From a bacterium (GTDB taxonomy: Bacteria > JAMCPX01): a stretch of 15,584 nucleotides of DNA. The position numbers were made by a program, and so were the translations under genes. The stretch is from assembly GCA_021789095.1 (NCBI GenBank), contig JAJYJX010000041.1:1-15584 (forward strand). The letters are read 5' to 3'. The notes under the pieces were generated by a model, which had not been told where the DNA came from, made no database searches, and worked only from the letters and a program-made list of their open reading frames with translations. Shown here piece after piece: positions 7,607 to 14,636 of the stretch (within the stretch, counting starts at the first letter, position 1; each line of letters opens with the position of its first letter).

Positions 7607-8296
7607 TTGCTCTATAAGCCACCTGTATAGGGACAGCATTCCCTGATCCATTCTTTCCGGATGCCACTGTACGCCCAGCACATTTGGGAAATCTTTCAGT
7701 TCTATTGCCTCTGCAATCCCGTCTTCCGATCTTGCACAAACGATCACGCCCTTGCCCGGCTCTTTTACAGCCTGATGGTGGCTTGTATTTATGGTTGTTT
7801 TGTCCTGTTTTATAATGCCCTTCAGTAGTGTATTCGATTCTAAAATAATCCCATGGCTGCCTTTTGAATGATCAATCTGATAGCCGGGGCTTGTATGCAC
7901 CTGGGTTTTTATATCCTGGTACAGTGAACCTCCTGCTATAACATTCATGAGCTGCATGCCTCCGCACACACCCAGCACAGGTATGCCCCTTTTTAATGAT
8001 TCTATATAAACCGCTGATTCGAAAGCTGTCCGTTCCGGCATTGTCTTAAGCTGCATAACAGGCTGTTCGCCGTACATTGCAGGGGGAATGTCAAAGTCCC
8101 CGCCCGTGATAACCAGACCGTCCAGCCTGTCTGCAAGGAATTTTATGCCGGCCGTATGTGTCAGCAGGACGGGTATGCCTTTACATTGATCTACTGCGTC
8201 TGCATAAGCACGATAAACAAAATATGCGCTTCTACCGTTGATTTCACCGGAATCCGCAGTTATGCCTATAAAGGGCATTCGCTGTTCATTTTTCAT
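7574..8296 (-). CDS. Gamma-glutamyl-gamma-aminobutyrate hydrolase-like peptidase C26 (class I GATase fold)
   Basis: This 240-residue protein of the PuuD/C26 family hydrolyses gamma-glutamyl amide bonds. The best-known member cleaves gamma-glutamyl-GABA in putrescine breakdown. It begins MPFIGITADSGE (from residue 7) as these proteins do. It has the oxyanion segment LVITGGDFDIPP (61-72), the nucleophile C111 in GVCGGMQLMNV, a conserved SHHQAVK (172-178), and the catalytic H212 and E214 in GVQWHPE. Length and motif order are complete, so it should be active. No other putrescine-pathway genes are in the window, and the real substrate could be another gamma-glutamyl compound. The ATG at 8296 has only a distant AAAAAGG. 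Met7 is an alternative start. The gene is divergent from the membrane protein at 8366 and overlaps the HEAT gene end. Confidence 0.9.
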   Translation of the reverse strand: MKNEQRMPFIGITADSGEINGRSAYFVYRAYADAVDQCKGIPVLLTHTAGIKFLADRLDGLVITGGDFDIPPAMYGEQPVMQLKTMPERTAFESAVYIESLKRGIPVLGVCGGMQLMNVIAGGSLYQDIKTQVHTSPGYQIDHSKGSHGIILESNTLLKGIIKQDKTTINTSHHQAVKEPGKGVIVCARSEDGIAEAIELKDFPNVLGVQWHPERMDQGMLSLYRWLIEQSLRRWDNLGH

Positions 8297-8302
8297 AATG
8301 GA

Positions 8303-8332
8303 TTTATAAACCTTTTTGCCAGGCTATTGCAA
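8303..8332 (-). promoter_or_regulatory. Possible sigma-70-type promoter for the C26 hydrolase
   Basis: On the minus strand TTGCAA (8332-8327) and TATAAA (8308-8303) are 18 bases apart in the 69-base divergent gap. Transcription would start almost at the ATG at 8296, giving a leaderless or very short leader, or favouring the second in-frame Met. The match is modest and is offered only as a candidate. Confidence 0.28.
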
Positions 8333-8365
8333 ATTATTTTATCTGTATTAGCTTATATTAGTTTT

Positions 8366-9214
8366 ATGAATCCAATTATAGCAGTTACATACTCATTTCT
8401 GTTCGGGCTGCTGCACGGCATACTGCCCGACGAACATACATGGCCCATAACATTCAGCTATGCTATCGGCGGGGGGAGCGGCAAAGAGGGTATGAAAGCA
8501 GGGCTGTACTTTTCACTTGCATTCACATTCCAGCGCGCAATGATTTCGGAACTCTCTTATCTTGCACTTGCACCTTTCGTGTTCAGCATCAACAGATATA
8601 TATACCTTATTGTTGGTGGTGTAATGTTTATTGCAGGCGTGATAGTGCTTAAAAGAAATATCTATCCCCACCTTCATATACTGGGACATCATCACATGGA
8701 TTCCAAGAACATGGAAAAAAGTTATAAGATATTAAGTACCGAATGCGATGGATGCGATCCGCAGACCAGTGCACCCCCTGTTCAATGGACGCTCATCCAT
8801 GGATTCATAGCCGGTTTCGGGTTTGGCGGGTTCGCATTGTTTGTAAATACTGTTGCTGCTCCGATAATGCCGGACGCATGGTTTGGATTCCTGCCCGGAC
8901 TTGTATTCGGTCTTGGAACGATGCTTATGCTGGTCATCATAGGGGCATTGTTCGGCATGTCCCTTAAATGGTTCGGTTCTCTTACAGAGAATGATATTAA
9001 AAAAATCGGCAGCGAGACGGGCGGGCGGACTTTATTTTTCGGGGGTTTGCTGTTCATAATAGCGGGATTCCTGACTATGATGGGTATTGATATCAGGCTG
9101 CCGTTTATTTCAGACTACACGCTCATTTCATTTTTTATGATAGGCGTAGCTATCCCCGCATTTGTATACTCATACAGGCAGGTTATTAAAACAAAGAGAC
9201 AAAAGCAGCAGTAA
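8366..9214 (+). CDS. Polytopic membrane transporter, NicO/TauE-SafE-like, with H-x4-D-E-H motif
   Basis: The product has 282 residues from the ATG at 8366. Starts further upstream in this frame would overlap the divergent hydrolase and add a non-membrane leader. About seven hydrophobic segments are visible. Helix 1 ends in FGLLHGILPDEHTWPITF (residues 13-30), where H17 and D22-E23-H24 resemble the H-x4-D-H metal site of nickel/cobalt permeases. The second half has LIHGFIAGFGFGGFA (143-157), which resembles the HG-AGFG motif shared by NicO and sulfite-exporter (TauE/SafE) proteins. It suggests a two-fold pseudo-repeat. The loop between the halves is rich in metal ligands: HLHILGHHH (102-110) and CDGCD (127-131). 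Possible roles are export or uptake of a transition metal, or an anion exporter. The family call is moderate. It ends six bases from the convergent LarA-like gene. Confidence 0.65.
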   Translation: MNPIIAVTYSFLFGLLHGILPDEHTWPITFSYAIGGGSGKEGMKAGLYFSLAFTFQRAMISELSYLALAPFVFSINRYIYLIVGGVMFIAGVIVLKRNIYPHLHILGHHHMDSKNMEKSYKILSTECDGCDPQTSAPPVQWTLIHGFIAGFGFGGFALFVNTVAAPIMPDAWFGFLPGLVFGLGTMLMLVIIGALFGMSLKWFGSLTENDIKKIGSETGGRTLFFGGLLFIIAGFLTMMGIDIRLPFISDYTLISFFMIGVAIPAFVYSYRQVIKTKRQKQQ

Positions 9215-9220
9215 GTGTGG

Positions 9221-10606
9221 CTATTGTCTGTTAAATGCAGCAGGGTTCTGAATAAATGCAATGCTTGCGTCTTTCCCGTGTGTCTTCTGTGCCGATGCTA
9301 TTGCTTCTTCCACAGTCTTCTTATATTCGAAACCAAGATGTTCAACAAGTGCCGGGTTCTCCGCACCTGCCACGAATATCCTGCCTGCATGGTTCAGTCT
9401 TTTCAAAGGCTGTGTTGCAAGCAGGCCGTGCACAGGATGGAAACCAAAATTGTGGCGGTATGCATCTATATATTCCTTCCTGCTGATAAATTCATTCCCG
9501 TATTTGTCCATGATTTTGTAGGGGTTCTTCAGATCCGCCAGCACCCTGTACCAGACTTCTTTGTAGGACGGATGATGTACTTCATCCCATTGATCTTTGC
9601 ACGGTGTTGCCATGATTACACTGCACCCGGACCTGCCGACGGCCTGGATCATGCCGCCGAGATAGCCGAGGCCTGTTGAGACGAGCGTAAGCAGGGGATT
9701 CATTAATGAGAATACGGCATAAGGGCTCCAGTCCGGTATGCCGTAACACACGATATCGGCTTTCTTTTCCAGTAATTCGTGCCGTGGTTTTTGCCTGCCT
9801 TTCAGCACCTCGAGTACCGCAGCGCGTGTGGCATCTACACTGCCTGCCCAGATGCGGGCGGCCTGCACAGGGTTGGCAAGCAGTGTCTCTACCTTAAAAA
9901 ATTTATTCCTCCCGAGTTTGTCTGTAACGACCTTCCCCATTTTATCCAGGATCTCGTGCAGCCTGTTATGACCGAGTGACATGCTCATAACATCAGGCGT
10001 GTGGTGCCATTTTATGGAGCGCCATGTCGAAAGACCCACGCATAGGGATTTCCATCCGCCGTTGAAGCCCGTGGAGTATGCGTTCAGGTAGATCGTGAGA
10101 TCGCTATCTGTTGCAAGCCTGTTCAGCTCCACATCATAGCCTTCTTTCGTTTTGCCGATGCAGGATATGTTGTCTTTATCCTCCGCATCATGACACAACA
10201 ATCGATCTGAAAAAGTCTTTGTGATTGGTTCACCGATTATCTTTTCCAGCTCTTTGTGCGTGAACTGCCGGTGCAGTGCGTTTGCGCACAGAAGGGTTAT
10301 GTCCTTGTCCCGTACACCCGCATGATGCAGCTCTTCTATAATGACCGGCAGGGCGGTTTCCCACACAGGGGCAAGCGACGGAACAGTGGGATCATCGAAT
10401 GCGATGGTTACTCTTTGTCCCGGGCGCACCAGTTCGCGCAAGGGTTTTGTGTCAAGGGGATGAAGCAGTGTGTCCTGTACCGCCTGAGCAAGATCGGATA
10501 CCGGCTTAAGCGGCAGGCTCACGTTCACGCTCGGCGGCAGCAGCGTGGTATGGTCAGGCAGATCGACCGTTATCCAGTCGCTTCCGAAGATCATTTCCTT
10601 TTGCAT
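9221..10606 (-). CDS. LarA-like (DUF2088) protein, probable nickel-pincer-dependent 2-hydroxyacid racemase/epimerase homologue
   Basis: This 461-residue protein matches the LarA fold in length and motif order. LarA racemises lactate with a covalently held nickel-pincer nucleotide. Numbering from the ATG at 10606, D72 lies in AFDDPTVPS (LarA D72-I-T-R-P), H112 in NALHRQFT (LarA H108), the cofactor-tethering Lys is K186 in GFNGGWKSL (LarA K184), and H202 in IKWHHTPD matches the Ni ligand H200. Two active-site residues differ: R75 is V75 here and the second catalytic base H174 is A176. I therefore infer a different substrate or chemistry from lactate racemisation. The start is fixed by a perfect TAAGGAGG six bases upstream; a TTG two codons earlier abuts that site and is unlikely. 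No larB, larC or larE cofactor genes are in the window. It faces the MmgE/ComA-like operon across a decayed vapBC. Confidence 0.85.
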   Translation of the reverse strand: MQKEMIFGSDWITVDLPDHTTLLPPSVNVSLPLKPVSDLAQAVQDTLLHPLDTKPLRELVRPGQRVTIAFDDPTVPSLAPVWETALPVIIEELHHAGVRDKDITLLCANALHRQFTHKELEKIIGEPITKTFSDRLLCHDAEDKDNISCIGKTKEGYDVELNRLATDSDLTIYLNAYSTGFNGGWKSLCVGLSTWRSIKWHHTPDVMSMSLGHNRLHEILDKMGKVVTDKLGRNKFFKVETLLANPVQAARIWAGSVDATRAAVLEVLKGRQKPRHELLEKKADIVCYGIPDWSPYAVFSLMNPLLTLVSTGLGYLGGMIQAVGRSGCSVIMATPCKDQWDEVHHPSYKEVWYRVLADLKNPYKIMDKYGNEFISRKEYIDAYRHNFGFHPVHGLLATQPLKRLNHAGRIFVAGAENPALVEHLGFEYKKTVEEAIASAQKTHGKDASIAFIQNPAAFNRQ

Positions 10607-10612
10607 TCTCAA

Positions 10613-10958: not shown

Positions 10959-11028
10959 ATATTAATAGAATTGTACCTTGATACATCTTTGATCGAGTAA
11001 TACCTTATACCATAAGGAGTCGTTATTT

Positions 11029-12405
11029 ATGACGTATGCCGAGGAGCTTGCAGGCTTCGTTACAAGGGCATCATACAACGACCTTTCAGCATCTGCTGTC
11101 AATGCACTCAAGATAAGGATCCTCGATGCGCTCGGTTGTGCTATCGGGGCAATAGGCGGGGGACCGGTGGAGGCGATAGCCGGGCAGAACGAGGACTTCG
11201 GGGGCAGGGGCATATGTACAACGATCGGCGGCGGTGCAACATCGCCTGACAGGGCTGCCCTTTACAACAGTGCGCTTGTCCGTTACCTGGACTTCAATGA
11301 CAGCTATCTTGCAAAGGGTGAGACCTGCCATCCGAGCGACAACCTCGGTGCAGTGCTTGCAGGATCAGAGTACTCGGGTGCTGACGGCAGGACACTGCTG
11401 ACATCCCTTGCAATAGCCTATCAGGTACAGTGCAGGCTGAGCGATGTCGCACCCGTACGGGCCAAAGGGTTCGATCACACGACCCAGGGCTCATACGCTT
11501 TGGCTTCGGGTGTTTCAAAGGCACTCGGGCTTGATCAGAAGAAAACAGCCAACGCAATAGCCATAACCGGGACCGCATTCAATGCACTCAGGGTTACGCG
11601 TACCGGGATATTGTCCAACTGGAAGGGCCTTGCTTACCCCAACGCGGCTTTTTGTGCAACGCACTCCGCTTTCCTTGCAATGAGGGGAATAACAGGACCG
11701 ATCGAAGTTTTTGAAGGCAACAAGGGATTCATGGATGCTATTGCCGGGAAATTCGAGCTCGACTGGTCAAAGGAAAACCTGGAGCGCGTGACAAGGACAA
11801 TCGTGAAGCGCTACAATGCAGAGATCCACTCACAATCGGCCATTGAGGGAATCCTGGAACTGAAGCGTGAACATGGCTTTAGTCCTGATGATGTAAAAGC
11901 AATTGAGATCGAAATATTCGATGTTGCGTATAACATCATAGGCGGTGGAGAGGAAGGCGACAAACATATCGTTGAGAAAAAAGAGCAGGCCGACCACAGC
12001 ATACCTTACCTTGTTTCAGCCGCAATACTGGACAACGAAGTAATGCCCGGGCAGTACCTGCCTGAACGCATAAAACGCAGCGACATCCAGACGCTTTTAA
12101 GAAGGGTCAGCGTAAAGCCGTCTAAAAAATACAGCAGGCGTTTTCCCGGAGAGATGCCGTGCATGATAAGAGTCGAGCTCGAACAGGGCAGCGTATTGAC
12201 GAAGGAAAAAACGGACTACGAGGGCTTTCACACGAAGCCCATGAAGTGGGAAACTGTTTCAGAGAAGTTCAGGAAGCTTTCGCACGGCCGCACAGAACCA
12301 TCGCTCCAAAATGATATAATTGATTCGGTGGACAGGCTTGAATCCATAAAGGTCAAAGACCTCATGGATCTGCTCTCAAAGGTAAGACAGAAAGGAGGAA
12401 TATAA
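11029..12405 (+). CDS. MmgE/PrpD family protein (2-methylcitrate dehydratase-like)
   Basis: This 458-residue protein has the full length of the MmgE/PrpD family, whose members dehydrate 2-methylcitrate, decarboxylate cis-aconitate, or epimerise iminodisuccinate. Family landmarks are in order: RYLDFNDSYLAKGETCHPSD (residues 85-104) with conserved D91, H101, S103 and D104; GFDHTTQGSYALASG (147-161) with H150; NWKGLAYPNAAFCA (197-210) with K199; then KEQADHSIPYLVSAAILD, and late FPGEMPC. The ATG follows AAGGAG with nine bases of spacing. The stop is one base before the ATG of the ComA-like gene, whose ribosome binding site lies inside this gene's last codons, so the two are translationally coupled. 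No prpB, prpC or acnD genes are nearby, so a methylcitrate cycle is not supported here. The substrate is unknown, probably a hydroxy-di/tricarboxylate. Confidence 0.9.
   Translation: MTYAEELAGFVTRASYNDLSASAVNALKIRILDALGCAIGAIGGGPVEAIAGQNEDFGGRGICTTIGGGATSPDRAALYNSALVRYLDFNDSYLAKGETCHPSDNLGAVLAGSEYSGADGRTLLTSLAIAYQVQCRLSDVAPVRAKGFDHTTQGSYALASGVSKALGLDQKKTANAIAITGTAFNALRVTRTGILSNWKGLAYPNAAFCATHSAFLAMRGITGPIEVFEGNKGFMDAIAGKFELDWSKENLERVTRTIVKRYNAEIHSQSAIEGILELKREHGFSPDDVKAIEIEIFDVAYNIIGGGEEGDKHIVEKKEQADHSIPYLVSAAILDNEVMPGQYLPERIKRSDIQTLLRRVSVKPSKKYSRRFPGEMPCMIRVELEQGSVLTKEKTDYEGFHTKPMKWETVSEKFRKLSHGRTEPSLQNDIIDSVDRLESIKVKDLMDLLSKVRQKGGI
12391..12398 (+). promoter_or_regulatory. Ribosome binding site of the ComA-like gene, inside the MmgE/PrpD gene
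   Basis: AAAGGAGG is embedded in the final codons of the upstream gene, eight bases before the ATG at 12407. This supports tight translational coupling of the two proteins. Confidence 0.8.
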
Positions 12406-12406
12406 A

Positions 12407-13243
12407 ATGTCAAACACAGGAGAAAATGAAAGAGGGTTTAAGTTCCTCAGGATGAACGATCTACCGAAGAAGCCGCGTAAAACAGGCGTGACGGAAATCA
12501 GAGGTCCATACTATACGCCTATGGGTAAGCGCTACCTTGAGGACATCCTTGAAACAATGGGAGAATACGTTGATATCCTCAAGTTCGCGGGCGGCTCTTT
12601 CAGTCTTATGCCAAAGAAGGCGGTGAGGGAACTCATAGAGCTGTGCCACAAGCATGATGTCAAGGTCGATACAGGCGGGTTCATGGAATACGTCGTAACG
12701 CAGGGACGCGACGCGGTATCTGCATACATCAAGGAGTGCAAGGACCTCGGGTTTGATATAATCGAGGTTTCGAGCGGGTTTATAACAATCCCAACGGACG
12801 ACTGGCTCAGGCTCATAGAAAAGGTCAAAAAGGCTGGGCTAAAGGTAAAACCGGAGATCGGAATACAGTTCGGTGCAGGCGGAGCTACATCCCCGGAAGA
12901 GCTGGAAGCAGAGGGCACCCGGGACCCGGAACACGCAATAGAGCAGGCGAAGAAGTTTCTGGACGCAGGCGCATATATGATCATGATAGAGTCAGAGGGC
13001 ATAACAGAGAACGTGAAGACATGGAGGACCGACGTTCCGCCGAAGTTCGTGAATGCACTGGAAGTAGAGAACGTGATGTTCGAGGCCGCTGATCCTGAGG
13101 TCTTTGCGTGGTACATCAAGAACTACGGAGCAGAGGTGAACGTTTTCGTAGACCACAGCCAGATTGTCCAGCTCCAGTGCCTCAGGTCCGGGATCTGGGG
13201 AACAAAGAGCCTGTGGGGAAAAGTCATAACGTACAAAGGCTGA
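12407..13243 (+). CDS. ComA/phosphosulfolactate synthase family TIM-barrel protein, HSA32-like
   Basis: The 278-residue protein is related to phosphosulfolactate synthase (ComA), which joins sulfite to phosphoenolpyruvate on the way to coenzyme M, and to the plant heat-stress protein HSA32. Family features seen: VDILKFAGGSFSLMP (residues 55-69, K59), VDTGGFMEYV (87-96), LGFDIIEVSSGFITIP (114-129), KPEIGIQF (148-155, E150), IMIESEGITENV (192-203, E195), VMFEAADPEVFAWYIKNYG (223-241, E226), and VNVFVDHSQIVQLQCLR (244-260). The canonical ComA KFGWGT is KFAGGS here, and the GRESG stretch is replaced. The segments after residue 190 are closer to what I recall of HSA32. No comB or comC is present. 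I infer an enzyme acting with the MmgE/PrpD protein; sulfite addition is possible but not shown. Confidence 0.82.
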   Translation: MSNTGENERGFKFLRMNDLPKKPRKTGVTEIRGPYYTPMGKRYLEDILETMGEYVDILKFAGGSFSLMPKKAVRELIELCHKHDVKVDTGGFMEYVVTQGRDAVSAYIKECKDLGFDIIEVSSGFITIPTDDWLRLIEKVKKAGLKVKPEIGIQFGAGGATSPEELEAEGTRDPEHAIEQAKKFLDAGAYMIMIESEGITENVKTWRTDVPPKFVNALEVENVMFEAADPEVFAWYIKNYGAEVNVFVDHSQIVQLQCLRSGIWGTKSLWGKVITYKG

Positions 13244-13289: not shown

Positions 13290-13355
13290 GTCATTCCGCA
13301 CTTGATGCGGAATCCAGTCTTTTTTACTCTGGATTCCTGCTTTCGCAGGAATGAC
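13290..13355. repeat. Palindromic MITE-like repeat, 'gtcattcc...ggaatgac', copy 1
   Basis: The 66-base element begins GTCATTCC and ends GGAATGAC (perfect 8-base terminal inverted repeats). An inner perfect 9-base pair, GGAATCCAG and CTGGATTCC, flanks a T-rich centre. Each arm can also fold alone: ATTCCGCA-CTTGA-TGCGGAAT on the left and ATTCCTGC-TTTC-GCAGGAAT on the right, each with 8-bp stems. It is non-coding. A second, more diverged copy lies at 14553-14636, on the other side of the GT4 gene. Confidence 0.85.
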
Positions 13356-14552: not shown

Positions 14553-14636
14553 GTCATTCACATGATGCGGAATCCATGGGGTAGTTCTTTGTTTTCATAG
14601 TGGCAGTCTCTGGATTCCAGCTTTCACGGGAATGAC
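14553..14636. repeat. Palindromic MITE-like repeat, copy 2 (diverged)
   Basis: This copy begins GTCATTCACATGATGCGGAA and ends CACGGGAATGAC. The inner pair GGAATCCA and TGGATTCC (8 bases, perfect) flanks a longer centre of about 37 bases. The left arm has lost part of its hairpin, so the copy is older or less constrained than copy 1. It begins eight bases after the GT4 stop and may act as a 3' stem-loop for that gene. Confidence 0.8.

Follow-up and report, generated by a model that had tools for sequence, protein, structure and literature searches.

An MmgE/PrpD-family gene and an HSA32-like TIM-barrel gene form a conserved pair with a putative role in citrate-type acid metabolism

Gene layout in the window

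The window, by which we mean the whole 15,584-nt stretch of DNA that was analysed, carries two genes on its forward strand whose families were assigned from Pfam matches, structure models and trees: an MmgE/PrpD-family gene at 11029-12405 (protein P0001, 458 amino acids) and a gene for an HSA32-like TIM-barrel protein of the ComA fold at 12407-13243 (protein P0002, 278 amino acids). A single base, the A at 12406, lies between the TAA of the PrpD-like gene and the ATG of the HSA32-like gene. The Shine-Dalgarno sequence of the latter, AAAGGAGG (12391-12398, forward strand), is located inside the end of the PrpD-like gene, 8 nt before the ATG at 12407. This spacing and the embedded Shine-Dalgarno had been described in an initial annotation of the same DNA, and the coordinates are exact. 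The PrpD-like gene itself is preceded by a Shine-Dalgarno-like AAGGAG in the sequence (11014-11019, forward strand). A stem-loop followed by a T-rich stretch at 13293-13313 (forward strand) is a possible but weak terminator, as the region has fewer such sites than its shuffles. In a whole-genome search, the genome of the window (G000) yields one ComA-family gene and one MmgE/PrpD gene; no comB/comC or coenzyme M genes are present within the 15,584 nt. The name "HSA32-like" serves purely as a label, the tree and alignments having been built from bacterial and archaeal sequences.

Divergent from the pair is a nickel-pincer-type LarA homologue (9221-10612, reverse strand), for which the best model, that of the LarAH14/15/16 hydroxyacid isomerases, scores 318 bits, below its cut-off of 740. 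It is absent beside the pair in the related genomes examined. In the window this gene sits between the pair and a membrane protein gene (8156-9214, forward strand) with a weak DsbD_2 match, counterparts of which (77-83% identical) are found directly upstream of the pair in two related genomes (L014, 4096-5019; L015, 7801-8661). A dispersed intergenic repeat, CTGGATTCCTGCTTTCGCAGGAATGAC, has copies at 13329-13355 and 14610-14636 that differ by 3 mismatches, with none expected by chance. In two relatives of the window (L029, 7331-7858; L032, 10908-11435), the HSA32-like gene is closely followed by a gene for a 175-residue protein that, by eye, resembles a macro domain.

Identity of the two proteins

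Both Pfam domains of the PrpD-like protein place it in the MmgE/PrpD family (PF03972, MmgE_PrpD_N, E 1.5e-68, 231 bits; PF19305, MmgE_PrpD_C, E 1.1e-40, 140 bits; gathering cut-off 32). The structures matched by its AlphaFold model (pLDDT 94) are all MmgE/PrpD enzymes, among them cis-aconitate decarboxylase and 2-methylcitrate dehydratase. A profile of 59 orthologs gives its top score among solved structures to 2-methylcitrate dehydratases (138 bits, E 3.9e-39), with 129 bits to cis-aconitate decarboxylase and 80 to IDS epimerase. Seven residues, Asp88, Asp91, His101, His150, Lys199, Lys260 and His267, are invariant in the 59 sequences; His101 aligns with the HPSDN motif of 5mux, and the invariant residues include positions described for the MmgE/PrpD family (PMC12290011). 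The protein thus keeps the fold and family catalytic residues of PrpD and MmgE (1szq, 5mux), but it is ~20-22% identical to the solved enzymes and ~39% identical to the prpBC-linked PrpD of Verrucomicrobia, and it scores 89, 116 and 149 bits on curated PrpD equivalogs whose cut-offs are 458, 575 and 950. With cis-aconitate decarboxylase (IRG1/ACOD1) it shares family and fold (TM 0.84, 22% identity), that enzyme being a single mouse row with a long branch and an unsure tree position.

On the tree, one label change suffices to set off the paired PrpDs of bacteria and archaea, although the branch that joins the two has weak support (57) and the long branch of the mouse decarboxylase lies next to it. 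The subfamily stands apart from all solved enzymes, and E. coli PrpD, B. subtilis MmgE and the prpB/prpC-linked PrpDs of Verrucomicrobia likewise fall outside it. To judge from this tree, the PrpD-like protein belongs to a distinct subfamily that is specific to the pairing and is not a methylcitrate-cycle enzyme.

The HSA32-like protein matches Pfam ComA (PF02679) with an E-value of 4.8e-86; Pfam therefore bears out both of the families proposed in the initial annotation, which was also correct in seeing the KFGWGT of ComA replaced by KFAGGS (residues 59-64). The best fold match of its AlphaFold model (pLDDT 86) is 1qwg (Z 27.7, rmsd 2.1 over 241 residues), and the phosphosulfolactate (PSL) synthase of B. 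subtilis gives Z 25.7. The next structural neighbours are at ~14-15, and pyruvate carboxylase, PEP mutase, methylisocitrate lyase and OMP decarboxylase were set aside, a Z of 14-15 being treated as a sign of the generic barrel fold. Several residues are common to the protein and the PSL synthases (Lys59, Glu94, Glu120, Ser122, Glu150, Glu195, Glu226 and Arg260). Across 79 HSA32-like sequences 68 alignment columns are invariant, the shared acidic residues among them; we take this acidic cluster to bind a metal, as is general for the fold.

Three basic residues of the PSL synthases, Lys137, Arg170 and Arg244 in M. jannaschii numbering, are instead Gln154, Glu197 and Trp264 in the HSA32-like protein of the window and in all 79 aligned relatives. 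The PSL-type comparison set comprised four sequences (M. jannaschii, B. subtilis, the Xanthobacter cluster enzyme and a genomic ComA-like sequence, L023), with rows L022, L024 and L025 left out as mis-read ORFs. Loss of the three basic groups would speak against PEP and sulfite, both anionic, as co-substrates. On NCBIfam arch_ComA, a model built for archaeal ComA, the protein scores 108.4 bits against a curated cut-off of 280. The tree called for in the initial annotation places it outside true ComA: all 81 HSA32-like rows fall apart from the PSL synthases, which are long branches, with support of 100/100. (A single separate clade for HSA32-like genes that lack a partner is ruled out by 14 label changes on the same tree.) Compared with the PSL synthases (ComA, 1qwg; B. 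subtilis, 1u83; Xanthobacter, Xaut_4872), the protein has the same barrel but is ~25% identical, contains an extra GAGG-type stretch after Gln154 and has different gene neighbours, the Xanthobacter enzyme adjoining coenzyme M genes whereas HSA32-like loci are without com-like neighbours. This is a PSL-synthase fold without the PSL-synthase residues, and tree, curated score and active-site residues all indicate that the protein is not a PSL synthase. From this comparison, the annotation "phosphosulfolactate synthase" would seem to be wrong for a large group of proteins that now carry it.

Recurrence of the pair and the distribution of PrpB

A scan with two peptide patterns, taking one genome per species, returned 151 close relatives of the HSA32-like protein, of which the best 80 were kept; since only two patterns were scanned, the sample favours close relatives. 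In 57 of these 80 (best 80 of 151), a PrpD ortholog in the same orientation lies upstream with its end less than 700 bases away, and adjacent genes often overlap or are separated by a few bases. In the same best 80, one pair is divergent (L097) and one locus has no room upstream (L063). Among the 22 loci that lack an adjacent PrpD ortholog, six carry one elsewhere in the genome (58-69% identical); in G386 the ortholog is ~30 kb from the HSA32-like gene on the same contig. The best 80 of the 151 span Chloroflexota, Acidobacteriota, Armatimonadota, Planctomycetota, Nitrospirota, Verrucomicrobiota, Balneolota, Chlamydiota, Bdellovibrionota, Calditrichota and others. Closer to the window, every member of its genome's family with a ComA-fold gene has an adjoining PrpD gene, and the barrels are ~90% identical.

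The two genes also go together in two genome sets that were not picked for carrying the pair. Among 247 Acidobacteriota, an HSA32-like protein above 440 bits occurs in four genomes, and PrpD above 740 bits occurs in the same four and no other (next best 340), a co-occurrence with a hypergeometric p of ~7e-9 that ignores relatedness. Among 146 Rhodothermia, 23 carry the HSA32-like gene and 17 the PrpD ortholog, all 17 falling within the 23 and the genes being adjacent by 31-172 bases. The centre genomes of the two sets (G386 and G406) are HSA32-like carriers themselves. In both sets dependence is one-sided: the PrpD-like gene is never seen without the HSA32-like gene, which can stand alone. One Rhodothermia genome, G751, holds two complete pairs (C1:218937-221189 and 487879-490132). 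On plasmids, 20 records have an HSA32-like gene at at least 55% identity, and in 19 of the 20 an MmgE/PrpD gene accompanies it on that plasmid, mostly no more than a few kb away; on the Natrinema halophilum plasmid the MmgE/PrpD is only a partial match. Plasmid-borne pairs are found in Salinibacter, Methylosinus, Methylocystis and many haloarchaea (L227-L233, L235, L236). The plasmid HSA32-like copies are annotated "phosphosulfolactate synthase", a name that is probably wrong.

The distance matrices of the paired proteins correlate (r 0.50), with none of 2000 permutations as high. A survey of gene neighbourhoods for MmgE/PrpD partners, as the initial annotation had suggested, finds the pairing in related genera and across phyla, and this recurrence puts the arrangement far beyond chance. 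The PrpD-like and HSA32-like genes form a conserved, co-inherited functional unit, and the pairing is ancient. The bacterial HSA32-like proteins have a dedicated enzyme partner, as their repeated co-inheritance shows. The enzyme families are known, but a search largely confined to freely accessible literature gave no description of the two-gene module or of its role, and no paper that joins HSA32 or PSL synthase with MmgE/PrpD; one paper mentions PSL synthase and methylcitrate, once each.

Neighbour clustering in the 80 loci identifies the PrpD-like and HSA32-like genes as the only generally conserved ones. A longer operon was rejected: the next clusters either consist of spurious antisense ORFs or are confined to particular lineages, examples of the latter being IclR in Thermogemmatispora, hemerythrin-type/HTH genes in Balneolota and an alpha/beta hydrolase in Verrucomicrobia.

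PrpB is methylisocitrate lyase, the lyase of the methylcitrate cycle. It was not found by whole-genome search in the genome of the window or in five genomes of its family, and a methylcitrate cycle in the window's genome was rejected for lack of it. The initial annotation's statement that prp, com and coenzyme M genes are absent stands for PrpB genome-wide and for com and coenzyme M genes in the window. PrpB exceeds its curated cut-off in 16 of 21 HSA32-like genomes without a PrpD ortholog compared with 3 of 54 adjacent-pair genomes (and 1 of 46 without the HSA32-like gene), an association that spans few independent lineages, by count ~7 positive and 4 or 5 negative, with the Verrucomicrobia rows being close relatives and the Rhodothermus rows likewise. 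Within Rhodothermia alone, PrpB is found in 5 of 6 HSA32-only, 0 of 17 paired and 1 of 45 HSA32-free genomes. Many HSA32-only genomes have a PrpD gene adjoining prpB, as if the methylcitrate-cycle PrpD stands in for the partner; in contrast to 2-methylcitrate dehydratase systems, most paired genomes are without PrpB. A simple reading is that the HSA32-like protein needs a 2-methylcitrate-dehydratase-type activity, which may come from its own partner or from the methylcitrate cycle. Some genomes are exceptions (G392, G393, G395, G396 and G689), carrying the HSA32-like gene with neither partner nor PrpB above the cut-off. Together with the pairing, the PrpB link in partner-less genomes shortens the list of candidate substrates to a few citrate-type acids. 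Of 50 genomes, 48 carry aconitase-family genes, and the other two are small assemblies of 1.2-1.4 Mb. The pair as an obligatory aconitase replacement was rejected, nearly all paired genomes tested having aconitase-family genes.

Possible chemistry of the pair

We tentatively propose, with a probability of roughly one in three, that the pair is a two-enzyme metabolic module catalysing consecutive steps on a small di- or tricarboxylate resembling citrate or methylcitrate, the substrate being putative. In the first step the PrpD-like enzyme, by taking the C2 proton from a 1,4-dicarboxylate, would dehydrate (or hydrate) an acid of the citrate or 2-methylcitrate type. The HSA32-like barrel, with a metal ion held on its acidic cluster, would then add to or eliminate from the resulting enoate, or might cleave it. 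It is expected that water or another neutral nucleophile would replace sulfite in this step. The most economical version would be either an iron-sulfur-free dehydration and rehydration, similar to those of aconitase or methylaconitase, or a disposal route for 2-methylcitrate arising from a side reaction. This proposal is based on the pairing in 57 of 80 loci (best 80 of 151), the phyletic match, the plasmids, the correlation of r 0.50, the PrpB pattern and the invariant and shared residues. Against the proposal speak the near-universal aconitase-family genes, the genomes that do not fit the PrpB pattern and the few independent lineages behind it. The initial annotation had expected the pairing to reveal the reaction of HSA32-like proteins; what it provides is a real functional unit and a testable clue to the substrate and chemistry of HSA32-type proteins, and not the reaction itself.

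A degradative route is possible but unlikely. In it the PrpD-like enzyme would add water to an unsaturated dicarboxylate, and the barrel would split the product in a metal-assisted reaction of the retro-aldol type, as PrpB splits 2-methylisocitrate. The absence of PrpB from most paired genomes, as if the lyase step were done otherwise, would suit such a route, and the barrels of methylisocitrate lyase and PEP mutase do follow ComA among the structural neighbours of the HSA32-like protein. Their Z of ~14, however, is common to many unrelated TIM barrels, pyruvate carboxylase and OMP decarboxylase included, and genomes with PrpB still retain the HSA32-like gene. We consider it unlikely, too, that the PrpD-like enzyme isomerises or epimerises a substituted succinate and feeds one stereoisomer to the barrel. 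Among the characterised family members, (S)-(R)-methylsuccinate isomerase and IDS epimerase do carry these conserved residues (PMC12290011), and the paired subfamily is separate from every solved enzyme, yet the ortholog profile scores 138 bits to 2-methylcitrate dehydratases and 80 to IDS epimerase, the PrpB association points to citrate-type acids, and no other catabolic enzyme recurs next to the pair in the 80 loci.

An ordinary PSL synthase of the ComA/YitD type, serving coenzyme M or sulfolactate formation beside an incidental PrpD gene, is very improbable. Its Pfam match, its fold and the plasmid annotations would be accounted for; however, the protein lies in a separate clade (100/100), reaches 108 bits where 280 is the cut-off, has Gln, Glu and Trp in place of the Lys, Arg and Arg of all four PSL-type sequences and is without the com-like neighbours of the Xanthobacter cluster, and co-occurrence shows that the PrpD neighbour is not incidental. 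That the HSA32-like protein is chiefly a non-catalytic stress-protection protein, with the PrpD-like enzyme loosely linked to it, appears improbable as well. It would be in line with plant HSA32, which is reported to inhibit HSP101 degradation and thereby to stabilise it (PMC11840417), and with stress-flavoured neighbours: DUF488 in 11 loci and hemerythrin-type genes in 9, both raw counts uncalibrated against background, and Dps near the pair in Salinibacter. The neighbourhoods are suggestive of stress in this sense, but the 68 invariant columns, which include the acidic residues of PSL synthases, are typical of an enzyme, and the co-inheritance with the PrpD-like enzyme is tight. As an observation on the same neighbourhoods, likewise uncalibrated, DUF488, hemerythrin-type, OsmC, CMD-type and Crp-type regulator genes recur less than 10 kb from the HSA32-like gene in Balneolota, Acidobacteriota and Chloroflexota (L068, L080, L085, L087, L093, L095, L099; L034, L048, L052, L066, L072).

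Returning to the citrate-type module, a bolder version is speculative and quite unlikely. Here the pair would be an iron-sulfur-free (methyl)aconitase-like system: citrate or 2-methylcitrate would lose water on the PrpD-like enzyme, and the barrel would act as a metal-dependent hydratase or lyase of a new kind. Carried on plasmids and near stress genes, such a system might act as a stress-resistant bypass or in methylcitrate disposal, and plant HSA32 would have kept the same reaction class. We know of no metal-dependent hydratase or lyase chemistry for the ComA fold.

The papers found give no biochemical reaction for HSA32, which is required for long-term heat acclimation in plants (PMC11840417); a stress association is common to plant HSA32 and, suggestively, the bacterial HSA32-like genes. 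Because plants are reported to be without MmgE/PrpD proteins (PMC12290011), plant HSA32 must act without a PrpD-like partner, and some bacteria also carry an HSA32-like gene without one. In a tomato listing, plant HSA32 reads "phosphosulfolactate synthase-related protein" (PMC3162933).
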